Below are positions 1-11,257 of a stretch of 64,000 nucleotides of DNA, one piece after another (the stretch's first letter is position 1; each line of letters begins with the position of its first letter). The notes under the pieces are model-generated. The model did not search any database. It was given only the letters and a program-made list of their open reading frames with translations, and had not been told where the DNA came from. The translations under genes were made by a program, and so were the position numbers. Origin of the DNA: Candidatus Schekmanbacteria bacterium. Its GTDB lineage: Bacteria > CSSED10-310 > JACPHN01. The DNA lies in NCBI GenBank assembly GCA_016188575.1, contig JACPHN010000044.1:31616-95615 (forward strand), given 5' to 3'.

Positions 1-1
1 T

Positions 2-268
2 GCCTTGATTCGCTTCGTACAGGACCGGCCCGGGCACGACCGGCGGTACGCGCTGGACACCTCGCGCGCGCGGCGGCTGGGGTTTCAACCGCAGACGAAC
101 TTCGAGCTTGGCCTGCGCCAGACGGTGCTCTGGTATCGCGACAACGTCGACTGGTGGAAGTCCGTGATTCATCAGGACAAGGACTTTCGCGCCTACTACG
201 AGCGCCAGTATGGAAATCGTCTGAGGAATGGGGTGGAGGCCTTGGCGGAATCTGGTCATGGGGAATGA
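2..268 (+). CDS. rfbB: dTDP-glucose 4,6-dehydratase, C-terminal end (partial)
   Basis: This is the last 88 codons of a gene that begins before the window. The reading frame is open from base 2, so the apparent internal start at base 5 is not the real one. The residues [15 protein letters not shown] followed by a LGFQP segment and a YRDNVDWW-like helix are the C-terminal substrate-binding part typical of RfbB, an extended SDR that converts dTDP-glucose to dTDP-4-keto-6-deoxyglucose in the cytoplasm. The catalytic core is outside the window. Its stop codon overlaps the start of the next gene, rfbD, so the two are almost certainly co-transcribed in a dTDP-L-rhamnose pathway. Confidence 0.9.
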
Positions 269-1109
269 GCGCGTCGTGGTCACCGGCGGGGCAGGAATGC
301 TGGCCCGCGACCTCGTGAAGGTGTTTACAAACCAGTACGAGGTTACCTGCCTGCCCCGCGCGGCGCTCGACGTAGCTGACGAAAACGCGGTGCTCTCATG
401 CTTTCGCGAGCTTCAGCCGAACGTCGTGCTACATGCGGCGGCATACACGCAGGTCGACAGGGCGGAAATGGAATCCGCTGAGGCGTTCCGCGTCAATGCT
501 TCCGGGGCGCGCGCGGTCGCCCGGGCGAGTGCCGCCGTGGGCGCCTTTCTGGTTGCATATTCCACGGATTTTGTGTTCTCGGGTCTGGCGTCCGCGCCCT
601 ACGGTGAGGAGGCCCAGACCGGTCCACTGTGCGCGTACGGGCGCTCGAAGCTCGCCGGTGAGCTGGCGGTCCAGGAAGAAACTGACCGCTACGCCGTGCT
701 GCGCACGGCCTGGCTCTATGGCGCCGGCGGTGGCTGCTTTCCAAAGACCATGCTCCGCCTCGCGGCAGCCGCGGACAAGCCGCTGGCGGTCGTCTGCGAC
801 CAGTTCGGCTCGCCGACATTTTCTGGAGACCTCGCGGCATTGACGGTCGCGGTTGTGCGCCTGCGCTGTCAGGGCCTCTATCACGCCGTCAACGAAGGGG
901 TCGTGTCGTGGTTCGAGTTTGCTCGGGAAGTCTTGCGGTGCGCCGGCGTGGCCCGCGGCGTGACGGCGATCGGTAGCGACGAGCTCGACCGCCCGGCGAA
1001 GCGCCCCGCCTATTCGGCGCTGTGCACGCGGCGGCTCCGGTCCGCCATACGGCTGGCACCGCGATCCTGGCGAGAGGCGCTGGCCGACTTCCTGGAGGAG
1101 ATCAGGTGA
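258..1109 (+). CDS. rfbD: dTDP-4-dehydrorhamnose reductase
   Basis: The 283-aa protein opens with [14 protein letters not shown], a Rossmann GxxGxxG nucleotide-binding loop in the form usual for RfbD. It continues with [12 protein letters not shown] and YSTDFVF segments and a YGRSK active-site motif, which are landmarks of this extended SDR. It catalyses the last step of dTDP-L-rhamnose synthesis, reducing dTDP-4-keto-rhamnose with NAD(P)H. The ATG at 258 is preferred to an in-frame start at 228 because the fold starts immediately after it and a GGAGG lies upstream at 235. The start overlaps the end of rfbB by 11 bases and the stop overlaps the GTG of the next gene, a tightly coupled operon. 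rfbA and rfbC are not in the window. Confidence 0.92.
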
Positions 1110-2110
1110 GCAGCAGCCAGCAGCAGCAGCGGCGCGCCCTGGTCACCGGCGCGGCCGGCTTTGTGGGCCGCCACTTGTGTCGTGAGCTCGCCGCTCGCGG
1201 CGTGATCGTGCATGGCACGCGCCGGCCGCATCCCGGTCAGAGCGTCGCGATGGTCGAAGCTGCCATGCTGCACGAGGCCGAAATCTCCGACCGGGAGCGC
1301 CTGACCGCGATTCTGCGGGAGGTTGAGCCTACCGAGATCTACCACCTTGCCGGCCTCGCCGACGTCGGCGCCGCCTGGCGCCAGCGCGAGCAAACCTACC
1401 GCGTGAATGTCTGGGGCTGTCTCGAGCTCCTCGAGGCGATCGTCACCATTGGCATGACGAACGCTTCGCTGCTCGTCGTGGGCTCCTCGGAGGAATACGG
1501 GACCGTGCCCGCGGAGGAGCAGCCGATACACGAAGACCGACCCCTGGCACCGCGCAGCCCTTACGGCGCCAGCAAGGCTTGCCAGGAGATCCTGGCGTGC
1601 CAGTACGCGCGCGCGTTCGGGCTCGGCGTGCTCGTCGCGCGCCCATTCAACCACGCCGGCCCCGGGCAGCAGACGGGTTTCGTCTGCTCGGACTTCGCCC
1701 GTCAGATCGCGGCCATCGAGCTCGGCCTGGAAGAAGCGCCGCTCCGTGTCGGCAATTTGTCCGCACAGCGCGATTTTACCGACGTGCGCGACGTGGTGCG
1801 AGCATACGCGGATCTGATCGAGAAGGGGCGCCCAGGGGTTGCCTACAACGTCTGCTCGGGGCGGCCGGTGCCCATCGAGGACATTCTCGGGATTCTGCGC
1901 GAAAGCGCGCACCAGCGCATCGCCGTCGCGCGCGACAGCGAGCGGATGCGGCCGAGCGATACGCCGATATTTGTCGGCAGCAGCGAGCGCCTGCAGCGCG
2001 ACACGGGGTGGTCGCCGCAGATTGCTCTCGAGCAGACGCTGCGCGACGTCCTCGCGTACTGGCGCGCGACACTCGGCGCGGAAGGCGCTTCTGCGCGCCG
2101 CGGTCCCTAG
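1106..2110 (+). CDS. NAD-dependent epimerase/dehydratase, GDP-6-deoxymannose reductase-like
   Basis: This 334-aa extended SDR starts at the GTG at 1106, which overlaps the rfbD stop and follows a GGAGG at 1093. Visible landmarks are ALVTGAAGFVGRHL (Rossmann loop), HLAGLADVGAAW, SSEEYG, the catalytic YGASK, ARPFNHAGPGQ, and the late NLSAQRDFTDVRDVVRAY segment. The last two resemble Rmd/GMD-type enzymes acting on GDP-4-keto-6-deoxymannose more than dTDP-glucose dehydratases. The likely product would be a GDP-6-deoxyhexose such as GDP-rhamnose for surface polysaccharide. Substrate cannot be fixed from sequence alone. A strong glutamine run after the start (SSSQQQQ) is a non-conserved leader. Confidence 0.8.
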   Translation: MSSSQQQQRRALVTGAAGFVGRHLCRELAARGVIVHGTRRPHPGQSVAMVEAAMLHEAEISDRERLTAILREVEPTEIYHLAGLADVGAAWRQREQTYRVNVWGCLELLEAIVTIGMTNASLLVVGSSEEYGTVPAEEQPIHEDRPLAPRSPYGASKACQEILACQYARAFGLGVLVARPFNHAGPGQQTGFVCSDFARQIAAIELGLEEAPLRVGNLSAQRDFTDVRDVVRAYADLIEKGRPGVAYNVCSGRPVPIEDILGILRESAHQRIAVARDSERMRPSDTPIFVGSSERLQRDTGWSPQIALEQTLRDVLAYWRATLGAEGASARRGP

Positions 2111-2127: not shown

Positions 2128-4608
2128 CTACGGCATCCCGTGCTCCGCGCGCGAAATGATCTCGTTCTGGGTACTTGGCGTGAGCTCCACGAAGCGCGCA
2201 CTGTAGCCGGAAATGCGCACGAGCAGATCCCCGTACAGGTGGGGCTGGCGCTGCGCGTCGCGCAGGACCTCCGAGCTGACCACGTTCACCTGCAGATGCT
2301 GCCCGCGCAGGCGGAAGAAGTGCGCCTTCACGAGGCTCTTGAACCACCCGGCATCGCCTTTCGACGCGAACAGGCGGGGGTGGAATCGCAAGTTGGCGGA
2401 GGTTCCACCGATCGTGCGCGTGGCGTCGAGGCTCGCGATCGACTTCAGCGTCGCCGTATAGCCCTTGCGCTCGCGCCCCGAGGCCGGGCCGACGCCCACG
2501 GAAAGCGGCTCCGTCGCCTTTCTGCCGTCGGGGGTCGCGCCCACGGCTGCGCCGTAGACGACGTGGCCGGACTCGGAGTGAAAACCCAGCCCGTGCAGTC
2601 CGCCGCGAAAGGTCTTGCGCGACATCAGGGCGTCATGGAAGCGCCCGACCAAATCAGCCGCAACCTCGTCTGCCCGCGGATCGCCGTTGCCGAATTTCGG
2701 GATCTTGTTAAGGAGATAGAGCCGATCGGCCTCGCGGGAGACGAAGTTGGCGCGAAGCAGGCCGCGGAGCTCCGGCAGCGAGTACCGCTGCTCCTCGAAC
2801 ACCGCCGACCGGATGGCGGTCAGCGAATCGGCTAGCGTGGCCAGGCCCACCAGGCTGATCCCGGTGAGGTTGCCGCGGGCTCCACCGGATTTCACGTCCC
2901 GGCCCGATGCCAGCGTGCCCTCGTGGAAAATCGACACGAAGGAGTCCGGAATCAGCTCGCTCTGCGCCGCATCGACTTTCGCCAGGGCGCCCATCGTCAC
3001 GTCCAGAACGTCCTCGGCGAACGCCGCGTAGGCGTCCTCAAAGGAGGCGAAATCCGCGTGCCCGTCTGCGGCCGCGCCGTGCACGAAAAGCTCGAGCGTC
3101 CGCGGCAGGTTCACGAACGCCGCGCAAACCGAACCGTAGGCGCCGCGCGGCGCCGGCTGGACGCACCCGGCGATAATGTAGTCGCGAGCGTCCGCCAGGG
3201 AAAAACCATGGTGCAGGAAGCCGTCGACAATGACCGCATCGTTGAACACGTGCAGGGCGTTCGCGCCGCTCGTGAGGACTTCCATGACGCGGTCGGTGAA
3301 CGCCTCCGGCGATTCTTCGTGCAGGCGGGCGGCGACGTTCGGCTGCAGGAAAGGTGCCGATTCGAGCGCGTCCAACACCATGAACGACAGGTCCGACGTC
3401 ACGTCGCGGCCATCCGCGTTGATCCCCCCGATCGTCAGGGTCAACCGGCCCGTGTTGCCGTCCTCCCAGAGATTGGCGCCGTTCTCGAGGAAGAACACCA
3501 GCTCGTTCGCTTTCACGAAAAACGCCTCGACCAGCTCGCGCGCCGCCTCCCGCGTCAGCCGCCCGGCCGCCAGATCCCGCTCGTAGTAGGGGCGCAGGAT
3601 CACATCAAAGCGCCCGAACGGCACCTCGGACCCGCCGTCGTGCAGCACCATGCCCAGATAGAGGAACCAGTACGCCTGAATGGCCTCGCGAAAGGTCTGC
3701 GGCGGCTGCTCCGGGACCGCGCGCAGCGTGCGCGCCATGTCCAGGAGCTCGGCGCGCCGCTGAGCGTCCTGCGTCTCCACCGCGGCCAGGCGCTCGGCTT
3801 CGCCGGCATACCGCCTGGCCAGCGTGATCAGCGCTGCCGCCGAGACGGCGATCGCCTCATGGAATGCCCGCTGCGGCGCGCCCGCCCCCGCCGCTTCCGC
3901 CCGCTCGCGCGCCTCGCGTGCCACGTCCAGAAGCCCCCGGCTCATCACGCCCGCGATGTCCGGATTGTACAGGTTCACCGCGAACTGGTTGTCGGCCGTG
4001 TACGCGAGCTTGCGCTGCAACGCCTTTTCGCGGCGGGTCAGCGACGACCAGTAGCGGCGATAGGAGGTCCGGGTGCGCCAGTAGGGAAGCACTTGCCGGC
4101 GCAGCCGCGCGCGGTCCTGAGCCGCGATGTGAAACGCCTGAGAGCTCCGCGTCTCGAAACCGTCGAGGGCGCGGTCGAGCAGCAGGGCCACGGCGGGCCG
4201 CATGGCACGCAGCCAGGGACTGAACGGCGCGGCAGCCCGCGTTGCCACCAAAACCGCCGCCGAGGCGGCGTGCTTCGCCACGCGACGCCAGGGGCCGTCG
4301 ACGCGGATGCCGCCGGCCTTGATCTCCGGGAAGATCACCGCGCCACGGCGCTTTTCGGTCATGCTGCCGGCGATCAGCTCACCCGGATAAATGCGGACCG
4401 GGATCTCCTCCATCACCGCCTGGTTTGCGAGCGCGCGCCGCAGGACGAGCGGCTGGCCGTCGTGGCGCGCAAACTCCCGCGTGAAGATCTCGGCGCGGAG
4501 CGTCGAGACCTCGAGGCCCGCTTTCCAGCTTTTCTCGTGCAGCGCGCGCGTGCGTGGTGTTGACAGACCCTGGCGCACGACCGGCGCCGCCATGGTAGCG
4601 ATATCCAT
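2128..4608 (-). CDS. Glycyl radical enzyme, PFL2/dehydratase-like family
   Basis: The protein is 826 aa, the usual size for the family. The ATG at 4608 has an AGGAGA at 4615-4620. The glycyl radical site VRISGYSARF places the radical on Gly801, and the active-site thiyl cysteine lies in IIAGCVQPAPRG at Cys482. Glycerol dehydratase, choline TMA-lyase and hydroxyphenylacetate decarboxylase carry C-V-E here, with Glu as acid/base. This protein has Gln484 instead, so a standard eliminase mechanism is doubtful. These enzymes are anaerobic and need a radical-SAM activase, but none is encoded in the window, so activation would be in trans. An ArsR-type gene lies just upstream on the same strand, 86 bases away. 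The substrate is unknown. Confidence 0.9.
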   Translation of the reverse strand: MDIATMAAPVVRQGLSTPRTRALHEKSWKAGLEVSTLRAEIFTREFARHDGQPLVLRRALANQAVMEEIPVRIYPGELIAGSMTEKRRGAVIFPEIKAGGIRVDGPWRRVAKHAASAAVLVATRAAAPFSPWLRAMRPAVALLLDRALDGFETRSSQAFHIAAQDRARLRRQVLPYWRTRTSYRRYWSSLTRREKALQRKLAYTADNQFAVNLYNPDIAGVMSRGLLDVAREARERAEAAGAGAPQRAFHEAIAVSAAALITLARRYAGEAERLAAVETQDAQRRAELLDMARTLRAVPEQPPQTFREAIQAYWFLYLGMVLHDGGSEVPFGRFDVILRPYYERDLAAGRLTREAARELVEAFFVKANELVFFLENGANLWEDGNTGRLTLTIGGINADGRDVTSDLSFMVLDALESAPFLQPNVAARLHEESPEAFTDRVMEVLTSGANALHVFNDAVIVDGFLHHGFSLADARDYIIAGCVQPAPRGAYGSVCAAFVNLPRTLELFVHGAAADGHADFASFEDAYAAFAEDVLDVTMGALAKVDAAQSELIPDSFVSIFHEGTLASGRDVKSGGARGNLTGISLVGLATLADSLTAIRSAVFEEQRYSLPELRGLLRANFVSREADRLYLLNKIPKFGNGDPRADEVAADLVGRFHDALMSRKTFRGGLHGLGFHSESGHVVYGAAVGATPDGRKATEPLSVGVGPASGRERKGYTATLKSIASLDATRTIGGTSANLRFHPRLFASKGDAGWFKSLVKAHFFRLRGQHLQVNVVSSEVLRDAQRQPHLYGDLLVRISGYSARFVELTPSTQNEIISRAEHGMP

Positions 4609-5080: not shown

Positions 5081-5940
5081 CCGGGGACCGCATGGGGCGG
5101 CGGACCGCGTTGCCAGGCCAATCGCTGCTGTGGGCGAAAGCCGGAATCCCGTTCTGGTGTTGGTGTCGAGGAAAGAATCGACCAACGCCGGCACCGCGCG
5201 CTCGTCCGCCATGCCTCCAAGCTCAGTCGTGGCATAGTCGAAGACCGCCGCGCGGCGGACGCTCGGACGGTAGTCGCTAGACTCGAGGCGAGTCAGCCCC
5301 AGGCTGCACCTCCGCGAGGGGCCGAGTTTCTCCGGGCGCCATTGTCGGATTGGATCGAGGCCTACCAGAACAACACGGCCCGATGATCCCCGGCCCGGCA
5401 TTGGGGCCTGATGAGGCGCGCCCTGCTCAGCCAAGCCCGCGGTGGGAAGAAGTCTATAGGACGAAACCGGACATTCGGCCGGCGCCCGGTTCTGTCTGGC
5501 GAAGCGAGGCGAAACAAGCAGTCATGTCCGACGCCCACGGACCGTTAGCCATGCACGCCGCTAGAACGATCCATCGACCCCATCCGTGACGGAGCCCGCA
5601 ACTCCCAGCGTCTTACCGAGCGAAAGTTGCGCGAGGCGCGGCGCCTTCCACGGCAGACGCCGCTCACTGCCGTGATGCGACCTCTCTTTTTCGCGGTCCG
5701 AGTGGTCCGATGATGACCCGGAATCTCCTGCAACGGGAGCACGGTGGTCCATGTCTATTGCCATCTCCGCTGAAAGGGTATGGGGAGCAGTGCTGACGGC
5801 GCCAATACCATCGCACTGCCTCGCTGTCAAGCAGGCCCCCCGTCACCGTGGTCAAGCAGCCGCCAGGCAGCCGACAACTCCTGGCCTCGGGCGCGTGCCT
5901 TACATTGTTGTGGATCGCCAGGTCAGACATTCGTTCCGAG
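5081..5940. other. Gene-poor stretch with repeat and possible degraded ORF
   Basis: No convincing complete gene is visible in these 860 bases. On the minus strand at about 5140-5290 one frame reads VRRAAVFDYATTE then DERAVPALVDSF, which resembles one decayed HEAT/PBS-type repeat. It lacks the rest of a protein. The segment also contains one copy of a dispersed 31-bp repeat (5376-5406) with weaker similarity extending to about 5505. The remainder holds nothing recognisable. Confidence 0.4.
5376..5406 (-). repeat. Dispersed 31-bp repeat, copy A
   Basis: On the minus strand this reads CCCCAATGCCGGGCCGGGGA followed by TCATCGGGCCG. An identical 31-base copy occurs on the plus strand at 63620-63650. 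Similarity continues less perfectly on one side: both copies carry CAGGGCGCG ten bases before the core, then a CTTCCC-C-CCGC block and a GGCCGAAT block further out. It is therefore a repeat of about 120 bp with a conserved end. Confidence 0.75.
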
Positions 5941-7587
5941 TCAGGGCGAAATGCGGTCCGCCGCGAGCTTCTGGACAACGGCCTCGAGCTGCGCGATCCG
6001 CGCCGACATCTCATCGATCCGAGCGTTCTTGGCTTCGAGCTCTGCCTGAAGCTCTTTTACGGCCACCAGCGCGACGCCGGCGACATCCGAAACCGCGATT
6101 CCAGTACTGGATTCGCCGAGCCCAAACGCGGCGTGAAAATCCTCGGCAAACGGCCCCAGGTGCTTCACGGTCGGAGCATCGTGCTTGTAGCTCCACAGTG
6201 CAACCTCCAAGTTCTTCAGATGCCCGAGCACGTTCAATGACTCTGCCGATACCACATGCCCCTTGACCGCGCGACTCGAGCTCTGTGTCAAGGTGCCGGC
6301 GATCCACAAGTTCCCCGCCGCAGTGACCGCGAGGCGCAGGTCGGCGCCGTTATAGAAGGCGGCATTGCCGGCGGGGTAAAGACGCAGGCTGGCGCCGGTG
6401 CCGTCCGACCGGCCGATCTCGAATCCGTCCGTGTACGTCGAGAAGTCAGTCATCCTGAGTCTCCACTGGACGCCCGAAGTCACATGGTCCAGCAAGATGG
6501 TGGGTTGCGCGGGTCTGGCGAGATGGAGGCTGGCAGTCGGTCCGTACGTTCCGAGCCCGATGTTACCCGAGGCGGCGATGGCGAGACTGTTCTGGGGGGA
6601 ACCGGGAAAAATCCGGAACGGGAGCCTCGATCCCGCAGTTACGTCGCGCACGAAGAAGTTCGCCTCGTTGCCAGCGACATCCCACGTCTGTGCCGTGTAG
6701 CCAGAGGTGCCGTCCTGGTTGAATCGGACGGCAGGCGTGTCACCGCTGACCACATCCACATCCTTGACCGGGGAGGAGGTGCCAAGCCCAAGGCGCCCGC
6801 TACTATCAATATAGAGTGACGAGGTCGGTGCGCCCGCAGTTACCAAGAAGGGCGTCCTGGCATTGGTAACGTCATCGATTGCAAACATGCTCCGGCCGCC
6901 GCTAGAAGAATCATTTGCGGTCAGTTGCCAATCGTTGGAAGGAAATGATCCGGTCGAGCTCGTGTCGTCGAACTTGATTCTGAGGTTATTTTCCTTGAGG
7001 CGAATGGTATCGAAGTCAAAATTCTCGTTGTTTACACAATCGAGCCCCACGCACAGGCTGCCAATGGTGATTTGATCGTCGCTGGTCACGACATCGAAGG
7101 GTTGCGCCGTGCCACCGCGGGCTGCGCGATCTCCTGAGGCCGGACCTCGGCCGCCTGGCCCGGGTTCTTCGTCCAAGGGGATTTCGCCGTCGCGGACGGT
7201 GAACGCTCCGGTCATCGTCGCCACCACCGTAGGAAGACGTCTCGAGAGGACCGACGGGCGGCCGTCGGCAGCCAGATCGCTGGCGCTCGGGAAGCGGAAC
7301 AAGGTCAGCTCGTAGCGGTAGCTTCCATCCTTGATTGACTTGCCATTCTTGTCATAAGTGCGGAAGACGATCTGCTTGTCAGAGCCGACCGATACATCAC
7401 TAATTGCCGCATTGCCAACCGATATCTTCAGGTTTGCCCTGTGATAAGATACGTTTGGTATGAATAAGAGCTCCGACGGATAGACCTGTAGCGAGACATC
7501 GTTAGAAGCAGAGAGCATGGAGCTCGACATAGATAAGGCGACAACAAACAGAATTGTCAGAACAGGCAGAAGCGGCGATCGTATCAC
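5941..7587 (-). CDS. Secreted protein with C-terminal S74 intramolecular chaperone domain
   Basis: The 548-aa protein starts at the GTG at 7587, chosen because an AGGAG lies eight bases upstream and a signal peptide (LLPVLTILFVVALSMSSSM) begins at once. The middle contains repeated SSGRLGLGTSSP / ASGNIGLGTYGP motifs typical of beta-rich repeat stalks. The C-terminal 113 residues match the chaperone-of-endosialidase (peptidase S74) domain: QSSSRAVKGHV with Ser437 and Lys442 at the spacing of the self-cleaving Ser-Lys dyad, SYKHDA, HLGPFAEDF, then a coiled coil ending the protein. The domain trimerises a stalk and then cuts itself off. In phages it sits on tail spikes; here a signal peptide implies export to the surface. 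Confidence 0.85.
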   Translation of the reverse strand: MIRSPLLPVLTILFVVALSMSSSMLSASNDVSLQVYPSELLFIPNVSYHRANLKISVGNAAISDVSVGSDKQIVFRTYDKNGKSIKDGSYRYELTLFRFPSASDLAADGRPSVLSRRLPTVVATMTGAFTVRDGEIPLDEEPGPGGRGPASGDRAARGGTAQPFDVVTSDDQITIGSLCVGLDCVNNENFDFDTIRLKENNLRIKFDDTSSTGSFPSNDWQLTANDSSSGGRSMFAIDDVTNARTPFLVTAGAPTSSLYIDSSGRLGLGTSSPVKDVDVVSGDTPAVRFNQDGTSGYTAQTWDVAGNEANFFVRDVTAGSRLPFRIFPGSPQNSLAIAASGNIGLGTYGPTASLHLARPAQPTILLDHVTSGVQWRLRMTDFSTYTDGFEIGRSDGTGASLRLYPAGNAAFYNGADLRLAVTAAGNLWIAGTLTQSSSRAVKGHVVSAESLNVLGHLKNLEVALWSYKHDAPTVKHLGPFAEDFHAAFGLGESSTGIAVSDVAGVALVAVKELQAELEAKNARIDEMSARIAQLEAVVQKLAADRISP

Positions 7588-7893
7588 GGTACTAGCTCCT
7601 GAGGGGAGGATGAGGAAATTCGCATGGGCACTTGGAGAAAGGGCCGGCAACCGGTCACCGCCGCCGCCAGGGGGGAACTCGTGAAAGAGTCTGCAGCAGA
7701 GGTCGCCGAGCATTTGCGAGGCTGCGCCAACGACATTCCGAATGCTCCGAGATTTATCTTCTTGCCTTGTCACTCGCGCCAATAGCCCATCGCCTGCACC
7801 CCCGGGGGCGGCCGGCTGCCGGACACACCCATTCATCGACAGGCCTGTTGCTTGCCCGCGCGACTCGATGACAGACGAAGTAAGGGCTTCATA
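7588..7893. other. Intergenic stretch, no gene seen
   Basis: This 306-base gap separates the cyclase gene from the downstream S74 protein on the minus strand. The S74 reading frame happens to stay open through it, giving a possible 83-residue N-terminal extension, but that part has no start site as good as 7587 and no recognisable content. No precursor-peptide gene is convincing here. Confidence 0.4.
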
Positions 7894-9837
7894 CTATCGC
7901 CTTCGTTCCCCGTCAAGGCAAGGCAGTGCACCGAAGCCCTCGGGCTCCAGACTGCGAGCGATGAATCGGCTGGCGGAAAGCCCCCTCGTCAGAATGCACA
8001 CCGCGTCGCGGTAACTGCGAGGAGAATCCACGCTTTGGACGAGACGCCACGCCTGCTGTATGGCGCTCAGGTCGAGGTAGTGCCTGAGGGCGGGCGAGAG
8101 GTGGATCGCGCGCAAATGTGCCTCGACCGCCGTCGCCTCTCTGCGCAAGCGAGCGCACAGGTCCGCGGCCTGGCGGCCGCGGAGGCGGTTCATCCTCACC
8201 GCGTCCGGGAGGCGTCCGAGCATCGCGGTGCGGATCAATAGCCGGTCCAGGCCGGTTTCCCGGTCAAAAAACAAATGGTCCGGTACGCCGAGGCAGAAGC
8301 GCACCACGCGGATGTCCGCCGTCGGATCGCGGATCGAGAGGCCATGAGCCGCGCCATCCTCGGCGAACAGGTCACCCAGGATCGAGCGCCCCAGGCGCAG
8401 CATGCCGAGCCGCGCCTCCAGGGGATGGTGCCATGGCGCCCACATGGGGTGCAGCGCGTCGCCGACCGAGGCCCGTACGATGTCGAGTCGCGAGGCCAGG
8501 CGATCGTTCAGGGCCGTGTTCCCCCTCCACGGTTTGCCGAGCCGCAGGCGCAAGGCAAGCAACGGCCCCAGAACGGACTGCGGCATGATCCCATACCCCG
8601 CTCGCTTCAGCCAACCCTTCTTCGCGGTAATATATTCGCGAAACGTTTTTCCGGGCAGCGATCTCGGCATTCCCTTCCAGGAAATCGTCGCGTTGCCAAG
8701 CTGACCCGTGAGCACGACCGCGGCGCCCTCGGCGGCGGCAGCGGCATGGATGTCAGTCATCCAGTAGGCGTTGGCGCTCGCGTGCAGCGGCGACGCGTGA
8801 ATGCACACCGATCGATCGATGGCCTCAAGCACAGATATGGCTTCGGAGCGGAGCGGCAGGTGTTGGATCCCGGGAGCTGCTCGCGCCGCCAGCTCCGCGA
8901 GTGATTGCTCATCTCCAAATCGGTCCGAGGAAACCGATGAGGAGGTGTCGAAGATAGGGACAGAGGTATAGGCGAGCAGAGCGCGGCCCTGGGCTGCCAG
9001 GTGCCGAGCGGCGGTCACGGCAACAGACGAGGAGTCGAGCCCTCCGGACAGCGTTGCTGCCACGCGGCCGCTGCTGCGGAGTCGGCAGCGCACCGCTTCG
9101 TCGAAGACCGGTAAAAAGGCCTCGCTGCATTCCTCGATGGATTTGTAAGGGACTTCGTGGAAGTCCTCCTGGAGCGCGTACTGCCGGGCGCTGGCGAGGC
9201 CGCTTTGCACCGTCAGCAGGTGTGCGGGCGGCAGGCGGCGAATCGGCGCGAACGCTGTGCGGTCTCCGTGATAGACCGGCCAGGACAGCAGGAGCTGCGC
9301 GACGAAGAGCTCGTCAACGGTTGCGAGGCTGGCGTCCAGGGCCAGAAGCGCCTTCTTGTCGCTGGCAAAGGCAAACCATCGCGGACCCGCATGGTAGTGA
9401 ATGGGACACTGGCCAATTGGGTCGCGCGCCAGCAACAGGCGATGGGCGCCGGGCGAATAGACGGCAAACGCCCAGTCGCCGATGAGCCTCTCGGCACAGC
9501 CCTCGGCCCAGTGCTCGTAGCACCGGCCAAGCAGCGCGCCGTCGCTCAGCGATGCCCGCTCCGCGAGCGGAACCTTCAACGCGTCCATGAGCTCCTCGCG
9601 GTTGTCGAGCCGCGCCGCGGAGATCGAGATGTCGCCGTTGGCGAGCGCGACAGGCTGGCGCTCATGCAGTCCCTCAGGCGTATCCGCCCGCAACCGGCAG
9701 CCGAGCCCCGCGCGCTCGCTTTGCCACGCTCCGGACTCCTGTCGGCCCCAGCAGCTCGAACCGGCATCCAGGCGAGCCAGGTCCTGTCCCACGCATCGCC
9801 GATCATCCCAGCGGAGGATGCCGAAAATCGCGCTCAC
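7894..9837 (-). CDS. Asparagine synthetase-like cyclase (lasso cyclase-type)
   Basis: The 647-aa protein has the AsnB two-domain layout. The N-terminal Ntn-hydrolase-like domain starts MSAIFG, so the catalytic Cys2 of true glutamine-hydrolysing enzymes is replaced by Ser. The C-terminal ATP-pyrophosphatase domain carries SGGLDSSS at residues 264-271. Loss of Cys2 argues against free asparagine synthesis and fits enzymes that adenylate a carboxylate for ring closure by a peptide amine, such as lasso-peptide cyclases. It starts at a GTG 19 bases after the PqqD-like gene and ends an operon with an HprK-like kinase. That neighbourhood supports a role in peptide modification. The product and substrate are unknown. 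Confidence 0.82.
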   Translation of the reverse strand: MSAIFGILRWDDRRCVGQDLARLDAGSSCWGRQESGAWQSERAGLGCRLRADTPEGLHERQPVALANGDISISAARLDNREELMDALKVPLAERASLSDGALLGRCYEHWAEGCAERLIGDWAFAVYSPGAHRLLLARDPIGQCPIHYHAGPRWFAFASDKKALLALDASLATVDELFVAQLLLSWPVYHGDRTAFAPIRRLPPAHLLTVQSGLASARQYALQEDFHEVPYKSIEECSEAFLPVFDEAVRCRLRSSGRVAATLSGGLDSSSVAVTAARHLAAQGRALLAYTSVPIFDTSSSVSSDRFGDEQSLAELAARAAPGIQHLPLRSEAISVLEAIDRSVCIHASPLHASANAYWMTDIHAAAAAEGAAVVLTGQLGNATISWKGMPRSLPGKTFREYITAKKGWLKRAGYGIMPQSVLGPLLALRLRLGKPWRGNTALNDRLASRLDIVRASVGDALHPMWAPWHHPLEARLGMLRLGRSILGDLFAEDGAAHGLSIRDPTADIRVVRFCLGVPDHLFFDRETGLDRLLIRTAMLGRLPDAVRMNRLRGRQAADLCARLRREATAVEAHLRAIHLSPALRHYLDLSAIQQAWRLVQSVDSPRSYRDAVCILTRGLSASRFIARSLEPEGFGALPCLDGERRR

Positions 9838-9856
9838 CTGCGGCGCTCCCGGTCAA

Positions 9857-10165
9857 TCAATCGACCGCGTCAGCGCCGATCAGGCCAACGCGGTACAGCT
9901 CGTCGAGAAACTCCAGCACGTCGGATTCGCAGCGCGCCGCCGACACGTCGTAGCGCTGCTTCAAGAGCTCGCACAGATCGCGAACCCGGATCGGCGCGCG
10001 GAGCAGCTCCCAGATGTGCCGTCCAATTGGGTCGAGCCCATAATAGGCGTCAGCCCGTTGGCTGATCATGACGAGCTCGTCATCGATGGGCGCGGAGTCG
10101 ATGCCCGGTGAGTGACAAACGAGACTGTCTCGCGAAATGGCGGGAGGGGAATGGCGGCGGCTCAT
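9857..10165 (-). CDS. PqqD-family peptide recognition protein
   Basis: The 102-aa protein begins at the ATG at 10165, behind a GGAG eight bases upstream. It contains DDELVMISQRADAYYGLDPI then GRHIWELL and a C-terminal helix around DVLEFLDELYRVGLI, the PqqD fold (RiPP recognition element, three helices plus a short sheet). Such proteins bind leader peptides and present them to modifying enzymes. In lasso systems this is the B1 protein. It lies between the kinase and the cyclase; its start overlaps by four bases (ATGA) the end of a 60-codon ORF. A fused or adjacent B2 protease, normally present, is not seen. Confidence 0.85.
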   Translation of the reverse strand: MSRRHSPPAISRDSLVCHSPGIDSAPIDDELVMISQRADAYYGLDPIGRHIWELLRAPIRVRDLCELLKQRYDVSAARCESDVLEFLDELYRVGLIGADAVD

Positions 10166-10344
10166 GGCTCGTGCTCCGACAAGTGAGTAGAGGGCGTCGC
10201 GCCCGCGACGCATCTCGAGGACCAGCCGAGGTCGGGCACCGGCGCCTGCTCCGCGGGTGGTCCGCACGCGTGCCCACATACGCAGGGCTCGCGTCCTCGC
10301 GCTCGAGGACTCGGGACAGGGTATCCGCCGGTGGTCCGGTGCAT
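10162..10344 (-). CDS. Candidate small peptide (possible RiPP precursor)
   Basis: A 60-codon ORF fills the otherwise unexplained 180-base gap between the kinase and PqqD genes. Its ATG follows the kinase stop by one base and its TGA overlaps the PqqD ATG, as in translationally coupled genes. The peptide has a Y-P-V-P at residues 8-11, which fits the YxxP leader motif bound by lasso B1 proteins. It also has four cysteines, C-V-C-G-H-A-C at 21-27 and Cys45, and Gly24 followed by Glu32 at ring distance. Against it: no Thr at the penultimate leader position before Gly24, no clear ribosome site, and all three frames are open in this GC-rich stretch. Confidence 0.3.
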   Translation of the reverse strand: MHRTTGGYPVPSPRARGREPCVCGHACGPPAEQAPVPDLGWSSRCVAGATPSTHLSEHEP

Positions 10345-10345
10345 G

Positions 10346-11257
10346 CTACGTCTCGGCAAGAAGCAACGAAGTCAGCTCGGCGGCCGTCCACCGCTGCCGC
10401 GGGCGACAGACGCGGAACATCGGCAGCGCGGCAGCGCGCAACAGCGGACCGGTGAAAGCCAGAGCGCCTCCCGCAGTTCCCGGTGGGAGACACGCGCCTT
10501 CCAGCCACGCAAGCTTCTCGAGTCCGCGGATCTCTTCGACGGCGATCTCCTCCCCATCGTGCACGGACAGGAAGAACAGACGCCCCACGCGAGCAGCCGG
10601 CGAGAGCGCGTCGCGGCATTCGAGGTGGATCAGGCGTTTGGCGGCAAACACTCCCGGCGGCACCGCACTGGGGCCGGGCGCCCGGAGATGCATGCGCTCG
10701 GCTGCGTCCGCGCAGAGGCGGTACTGCGGATAGGCTGGGAGCACGACGAGCTCACCATTGTCGTCCGACCGAATCACGCTCACGTCATCGGCGATGAGCC
10801 GCGCGCCGCTCCGCACGGCGGTCGCAAGCCACGTCGACTTGCCGGCGCCGGATTCGCCCGCAACGACCACCGCGCCGGAGGCGGTGCGGGCGGCATTGGC
10901 GTGCAGCACCAGGCAACCCCTCTGTGCCATGATGGCGGGCATGCAGGAATAGAGGAGGAAGCGATGTAGGGTCCCCGGGTCGCTGCCGGCCTCGGCGTCA
11001 ATCACGATCTCGCAGCCATTCGCTGCCAGAAAACGACCGTATCCCGTCCTCCACAAGGTCGTGCCATCGCGTCCGACCTGCACCTGGACCCCGTCCTGCA
11101 GCCGATGGGCCTGTAAGGCCCGAGCCGCCAGCAACGGTTCCAGGGGGGCGAGCCGGACCCACACGTCCACGCTCTGCCCGCATGCGTCTTGCAGGACCGG
11201 GCTGCGGAATGGAAAGGCGAAGCACAGCCCGAACGCCGTGTAGAAATGCCTGCTCAC
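10346..11257 (-). CDS. HPr kinase-like protein (HprK-related)
   Basis: The 303-aa protein has a C-terminal P-loop kinase domain with GESGAGKST at residues 134-142, the exact form seen in HPr kinase/phosphorylase, followed by LIADDVSVI, the conserved acidic segment. The N-terminal half has no HprK N-domain signature. HprK-like proteins without HPr partners are known next to PqqD-type proteins and asparagine-synthetase-like cyclases in lasso and related peptide clusters, where some phosphorylate the precursor. The gene is first in the three-gene minus-strand operon. No HPr or PTS gene lies nearby, which argues against carbon regulation. Confidence 0.82.
   Translation of the reverse strand: MSRHFYTAFGLCFAFPFRSPVLQDACGQSVDVWVRLAPLEPLLAARALQAHRLQDGVQVQVGRDGTTLWRTGYGRFLAANGCEIVIDAEAGSDPGTLHRFLLYSCMPAIMAQRGCLVLHANAARTASGAVVVAGESGAGKSTWLATAVRSGARLIADDVSVIRSDDNGELVVLPAYPQYRLCADAAERMHLRAPGPSAVPPGVFAAKRLIHLECRDALSPAARVGRLFFLSVHDGEEIAVEEIRGLEKLAWLEGACLPPGTAGGALAFTGPLLRAAALPMFRVCRPRQRWTAAELTSLLLAET

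Follow-up and report, generated by a model that had tools for sequence, protein, structure and literature searches.

A probable phospho-lasso-type gene cluster of Candidatus Schekmanbacteria lacks a local B2 gene and probably relies on a leader peptidase encoded elsewhere

A 64,000-nucleotide stretch of contig JACPHN010000044.1 from a Candidatus Schekmanbacteria bacterium, referred to here as the window, encodes an HprK-like kinase (K), a PqqD-type recognition element (B1) and an AsnB-like cyclase (C), together with a probable precursor peptide (A). These genes are likely to form a phospho-lasso-type cluster for a ribosomally synthesized and post-translationally modified peptide (RiPP), the B2 leader peptidase of which is encoded elsewhere and would act in trans. 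A B2 common to three loci is the best explanation, because exactly one B2 gene was found in the genome and the sister loci have precursors of their own.

The kinase, PqqD and cyclase are real, high-scoring genes that stand in tandem order on the minus strand. A first-pass annotation had placed this trio, with an HprK-like kinase, a PqqD-type element and an AsnB-like protein carrying Ser2, on one strand, and the description was borne out by profile matches, a structural model of the kinase and the start of the cyclase gene. The kinase matched Pfam Hpr_kinase_C with 22 bits, which is under the cutoff of that model. Its predicted structure (mean predicted local distance difference test score of 85, from a 19-row alignment) has the PEPCK/HprK fold, and the best matches in the PDB were PEP carboxykinases with Z of 15-17, followed by HprK/P chains. 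The H-G-G-G-K-S-D-D motif, consisting of the residues that were mutated in BsfK, is intact by comparison with that enzyme (H119, G134, G137, G139, K140, S141, D157 and D158; PMC10368454). The PqqD protein exceeded the cutoff of PF05402 with 63.8 bits, and its best NCBIfam model was NF033536 lasso_PqqD_Bac at 63.7 bits, short of the cutoff of 80. The cyclase matched both PF00733 and PF13537 above cutoff. Its opening codons, GTG AGC, encode M-Ser2, so that the glutaminase Cys2 is absent, and in the alignment it has GQLGNATISW where AsnB carries GEGSDEVFGG. Among NCBIfam models, NF033535 for lasso cyclases scored highest with the cyclase (270.6 bits, against a cutoff of 525) and exceeded all asparagine-synthetase models (129.8 bits for the asparagine synthase TIGR01536). 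The window thus has two features of a lasso cluster, a PqqD-type RiPP recognition element adjoining the cyclase and an HprK-like kinase with an intact catalytic motif. It does not belong to SynChlorMet, the kinase scoring 18.1 bits against an ScmC cutoff of 125 and the PqqD protein 23.1 against an ScmD cutoff of 100.

A 64-row cyclase tree was calculated with quick IQ-TREE and Shimodaira-Hasegawa-like approximate likelihood ratio test (SH-aLRT) support. The window cyclase fell within a six-row set (SH-aLRT 97) together with a cyclase from contig C95 of the same genome, one acidobacterial cyclase and those of Priestia, Azospirillum and Tistrella, while E. coli AsnB, Sinorhizobium AsnB and the MCGI paralogues of the same genome were outside a 100% branch. 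The Priestia protein is annotated as a lasso cyclase, and its cluster also encodes a paeninodin-family precursor, PqqD, B2 and a transporter. The six have a GNxxxSW/Y motif in common at the AsnB GEGSDEVFGG site, C95 being a variant. Because of the tree placement and this motif, the closest annotated relatives of the window cyclase are lasso clusters. The protein belongs to the lasso clade, where it groups with a paeninodin-type lasso cyclase and apart from the asparagine synthetases, and it has Ser2 rather than the Cys2 of a free asparagine synthetase. The first-pass annotation had named clustering with free asparagine synthetases, or a trio dispersed in relatives, as observations that would speak against it; the tree gave no such clustering, and the trio recurs in relatives, at L015, L016, L126, L149 and L152. 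Ser2 is no peculiarity of B2-less systems, because the Priestia cyclase, which has B2 in its cluster, also begins M-S-A-I. The Azospirillum cluster, with an ABC transporter and the precursor ...TVTQ/ANSNAVADQDPNQTASG, was considered as a B2-less case and dropped, an annotated lasso B2 having been found 5 kb from its cyclase. No cyclase match at E 1e-45 was obtained in seven other genomes of the window's phylum, and a direct scan of genome contigs gave two relatives only.

The probable precursor gene shares the strand of the cyclase and follows it at a distance of 2 kb downstream, outside the coordinates of the trio; it had been overlooked in the first-pass annotation. The polypeptide reads MDHRAP...RLPWKAPRLAQLSLGKTL/GVAGSVTDGVDGSF, with W at -15, T at -2, Gly1 and Asp8, and has each element looked for in such a precursor, a [Y/W]xxPx[L/I] leader, T(-2), Gly, Ala or Ser at position 1 and Asp or Glu at 7-9. 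W-15 is also found in the paeninodin-type PbaA, and Trp is near-invariant in paeninodin-like leaders (PMC13381572). The cleavage site was placed by analogy, using the -2 Thr rule (PMC10368454), and is thus a predicted one. A strict pattern ([YW]xxPxL, T-x, G/A, D/E at 7-9) had one match, against 0.09 expected per 64 kb from shuffles. In local similarity to the leader plus core of a precursor on contig C150 of the same genome, the window precursor ranked first of 1165 open reading frames (ORFs; shuffle p = 0.0026); whole-length similarity was not discriminating (rank 21/1165). Because these tests overlap in the features they use and were partly picked after the match had been seen, the ORF is graded as a probable precursor, with fairly high confidence.

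Three further kinase-cyclase loci, on contigs C150, C95 and C154, and a lone PqqD gene on C230 were found in the 9.2-Mb genome. There is no B2 at C150, C95 or C154. The gene order at C150 is A-PqqD-C-K with a squalene-cyclase-like gene; the 699-residue protein encoded after the kinase (L016 4041-6140) has weak squalene-cyclase similarity. The C150 precursor, MNVKQ...RLPYEPPLLTSAGKVSELTM/SGTNSSTDGGGYS, lies directly upstream of PqqD and passes the curated lasso-leader model NF033521 (21.4, cutoff 19). At C95 the order is C-K-PqqD-A with a glycosyltransferase-like gene, and the precursor, ...KKKWTPPRIEDVSMTAITEV/SFGGSGTDSSIYS, follows PqqD and has a TTG start and an AGGAGG site. Next to the C95 locus (L015 9773-11673) are genes for a truncated radical-SAM-like protein and for a secreted, apparently LanC-like one. 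The C154 locus (L018 7918-11566) consists of a sulfotransferase-like gene, K and C; no PqqD was found there, and its kinase departs from the motif (H to E, and the second D to G). Neither C154 nor the surroundings of the lone C230 PqqD yielded a precursor, so that three of the four kinase-cyclase loci have one. When the cores of the window, C150 and C95 were aligned from residue 1, S5, T7, D8 and S13 were common to all. A genome-wide search with a profile of the three precursors gave no fourth convincing member, the three found being those that built the profile. At these three loci the frames of K, B1 and C are open and the catalytic motifs intact, and PqqD is retained beside each cyclase; B2 alone is separate.

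The absence of a B2 gene in the sequence flanking the trio, as first noted, holds across the whole window in searches with PF13471 and NF033537. When the entire assembly was searched with the same two profiles, each detected one and the same gene, C250:32309-32689. A B2 gene is thus lacking within the cluster and present within the genome, and the search for homologues elsewhere that the first-pass annotation had proposed yielded exactly one. The C250 B2 scored 90 bits with NF033537 (cutoff 33) and appears intact, with Cys104 and the AHAW motif conserved. It is flanked by serC and a peroxiredoxin gene, and no RiPP genes were recognized in the 18 kb around it. The tetranucleotide usage of C250 correlated with that of the window at r = 0.956, compared with 0.92-0.97 for five other contigs of the genome and 0.64-0.81 for four foreign loci. 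The separation of trio and B2 is not a contig break, because for each of them the distance to the contig ends exceeds 30 kb (C160, 95.6 kb; C250, 66 kb).

The recurrence of this arrangement was evaluated in 250 genomes of the Acidobacteriota class that includes the genome of locus L021, which were searched for B2 and with the cyclase model (threshold at least 260 bits, at most four candidate cyclases scored per genome, linkage defined as B2 within 8 kb). There were 62 cyclases above threshold, 39 with a linked B2 and 23 without. Five of the 23 were set aside: G128 and G051, which are asparagine-synthetase-like in the tree; G204, where B2 is cut by the contig end; and G023:C7 and G222:C2, which are low-scoring and absent from the tree. 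The remaining 18 unlinked lasso-type cyclases occur in 18 genomes, 17 of which have B2 elsewhere. Among genomes in which all detected lasso-type cyclases were unlinked, B2 was present in 11 of 12, compared with 39 of 198 genomes without such cyclases (Fisher p = 5e-7, relatedness not corrected); of these 12, G055 was not read in detail, and in G154 a contig end may hold a linked pair. Loci that were read directly included A-C-K loci that lack both B1 and B2 (such as L111, L112 and L113) and stand-alone PqqD-B2 pairs (L128, L130, L131, L137, L143 and others). The split differs between the two groups: in several Acidobacteriota genomes a PqqD-B2 pair stands apart, in the window's genome B2 by itself.

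The PqqD-B2 pairs of L128, L130, L137 and L143 (genomes G145, G172, G189 and G071) occupy a conserved queuosine-pathway neighbourhood with queC/queD/queE-like genes, a carboxypeptidase-regulatory-domain protein and PDZ proteins, the names having been read from sequence. This conservation suggests that the pair may be vertically inherited.

To account for the missing B2, the first-pass annotation had offered either a peptidase encoded elsewhere or a different amide or ester ligation. The former is favored by the single B2 on C250 and by the recurrence of the split in other genomes. The latter is not needed, given a lasso-type precursor in which Gly1 and Asp8 are present and a cyclase that clusters with a paeninodin-type one.

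From the sequences and by analogy with known families, a product, a phosphorylation site, a threaded topology, cleavage in trans and sharing of B2 can be proposed. The PqqD protein would bind the W(-15)xxPxL motif of the leader, and the HprK-like kinase would phosphorylate a Ser or Thr of the precursor, Ser5, Thr7 and Ser13 being the candidates. The lone C250 B2 would cleave after ...GKTL, the last residue of which is position -1. The cyclase would then adenylate Asp8 and couple it to the Gly1 amine, forming an 8-residue macrolactam ring. The same B2 may serve C150 and C95.

A number of observations weigh against this pathway. The cyclase, PqqD and kinase all score under curated lasso or HprK cutoffs. 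A broad regular expression gives 1.2 chance precursor matches per 64 kb, the codon score of the precursor is slightly negative, though the highest among the six frames, and a hidden Markov model built on canonical precursors does not detect it. No transporter gene was recognized beside the window locus. The predicted tails are short (5-6 residues), which makes a threaded lasso uncertain; since a six-residue tail does not assure threading, lasso-type macrolactam is the safer and preferred name. The genome is a 94%-complete draft, in which a second B2 could be missing, and that one B2 would serve all three loci is suggested solely by the single copy found.

The possibility was considered that the pathway is independent of B2, with another protease or no dedicated peptidase freeing the core and the C250 B2 being a relic or having some other role. 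This is the main rival, although an unlikely one. Work cited in PMC9266682 and PMC13381572 reports that pseudomycoidin, a lasso peptide whose cluster bears a kinase, can be formed in vivo when leader and leader peptidase are both lacking; the related linear polyphosphorylated peptides (LPP) employ the signal-peptidase-like LppS (PMC13381572); and the B2 gene is unlinked to all of the kinase-cyclase loci in this genome. However, the lone B2 retains its catalytic motif, B2 in other genomes tends to occur where cyclases are unlinked, and the window and C150 leaders have kept T(-2), a recognition feature of leader processing. Rather less likely is decay of the locus through loss of B2, such that no product is made any more. 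While the absence of B2 and of a recognized transporter, the weak codon score and the partly degenerate appearance of the C154 locus (a kinase with E in place of H and DG in place of DD; PqqD and precursor not found) would be consistent with decay, the open frames and intact K, B1 and C motifs at three loci, the single core pattern held by three precursors in divergent contexts and the frequency of the split layout in other genomes all argue for function.

Two more distant readings concern the identity of the system itself. The kinase, PqqD and amide ligase might act on the neighbouring tail-fibre-like protein rather than on a small precursor, given that an S74-type protein is encoded between C and A in the window and three tail-collar proteins are found within the Azospirillum cluster. 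This is improbable: both of those clusters have lasso-type precursors, the Azospirillum one also includes an ABC transporter and a B2 annotated as a lasso protein, and C150 and C95 have precursors but no such protein recognized among the genes called nearby. That the cyclase is a conventional asparagine synthetase or glutamine amidotransferase with unrelated neighbours is hardly credible. The shared AsnB fold and the PF00733 and GATase domains reported by Pfam speak for it, but Cys2 is absent, the lasso cyclase model scores far above the AsnB models, the tree contradicts it, and PqqD and kinase recur beside relatives of the cyclase.

A lasso-type cluster served by the C250 B2 in trans is thus preferred, and it may have a wider counterpart. 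In a hub-and-spoke arrangement, one B2 (here) or a conserved backbone PqqD-B2 pair (in Acidobacteriota) would be the common leader peptidase of several lasso-type loci to which it is not linked, a generalization for which the chances seem evenly balanced. In this reading such loci would be reduced to precursor, cyclase and kinase, PqqD being present in some, and mining rules that demand a local B2 would overlook or truncate them. Searches for lasso-peptide clusters usually look for A, B and C side by side. Should leader peptidases often work in trans, many loci would have been skipped or called incomplete, and attempts to express just the local genes in a heterologous host would fail. One protease would also have to recognize several leaders, which provides a direct test of B1/B2 substrate choice.

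Table 1. Coordinates in the window of the cluster genes, the predicted core and the adjoining tail-fibre-like gene.
Feature	Position	Strand	Details
HprK/PEPCK-fold peptide kinase (K)	10346-11257	(-)	303 aa, GTG start
PqqD-type RiPP recognition element (B1)	9857-10165	(-)	~102 aa from ATG at 10165; longer ORF reaches 10279
Lasso-type macrolactam synthetase/cyclase (C)	7894-9837	(-)	647 aa, GTG start, Ser2, SGGLDSS loop
Tail-fibre-like protein, weak Peptidase_S74 (endosialidase chaperone) match	5941-7713	(-)	Between C and A; pathway role putative
Probable precursor (A)	5561-5752	(-)	63 aa: MDHRAPVAGDSGSSSDHSDREKERSHHGSERRLPWKAPRLAQLSLGKTL / GVAGSVTDGVDGSF
Predicted core GVAGSVTDGVDGSF	5564-5605	(-)	14 residues: 8-residue Gly1-Asp8 ring + 6-residue tail

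Tail-fibre-like proteins occur in or beside lasso clusters both in the window (5941-7713) and in Azospirillum, which has three tail-collar proteins (L152 8119-9815). In the window (1-2110) and at L019 (4484-8726), a few kb separate a dTDP-rhamnose/surface-polysaccharide locus from the lasso locus. Polysaccharide genes also flank the clusters of Azospirillum (wbaP), L021 and Priestia (galU), as reported for paeninodins. A glycyl-radical enzyme of the window (2128-4608; pyruvate formate-lyase-like, 477 bits) adjoins an ArsR-type regulator and could be assigned to no specific subfamily by NCBIfam cutoffs.

Among the openly licensed papers searched, none describes lasso loci whose B2 is unclustered, which is weak evidence of absence. 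In one study (PMC8960859), lanthipeptide proteases are likewise encoded elsewhere in the genome than the RiPP cluster they serve, although both the RiPP class and the protease are different. The LPP systems of Bacillota resemble the window locus in their HprK-like kinase, discrete recognition element and [Y/W]xxP leader, and B2 is not needed (PMC13381572). However, they use LppS and have no macrolactam cyclase, whereas the window has one. The Bsf cluster of Bradymonas is similar in its predicted Gly1-Asp8 ring and in its HprK-like kinase, which has low identity and the same catalytic motif; BsfK phosphorylates Ser3 of the core (PMC10368454). In contrast to the window, the Bsf cluster is complete (A-B1-B2-C-D-K-N), its leader motif is at -17 to -12 with Ile at -2, and the window core has no Ser3. 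The paeninodin-type clusters of Bacillota (PadeA/K/C/B1/B2/D) have, like the window, an HprK-like kinase, a PqqD B1 that is a separate protein and a cyclase that begins with Ser2 and belongs to the same clade, and are also alike in the W at leader -15, as in PbaA, the Ser near the C-terminus and the polysaccharide genes nearby (PMC9266682, PMC13381572). Unlike them, the window locus is without B2 and without a recognized transporter, has a core of only 14 residues, scores under the curated paeninodin-type cutoffs, and has a gene content of acidobacterial rather than Bacillota type. By its features, the locus is a paeninodin/Bsf-like phospho-lasso cluster and, because the defining local B2 is absent, a split variant rather than a plain member.

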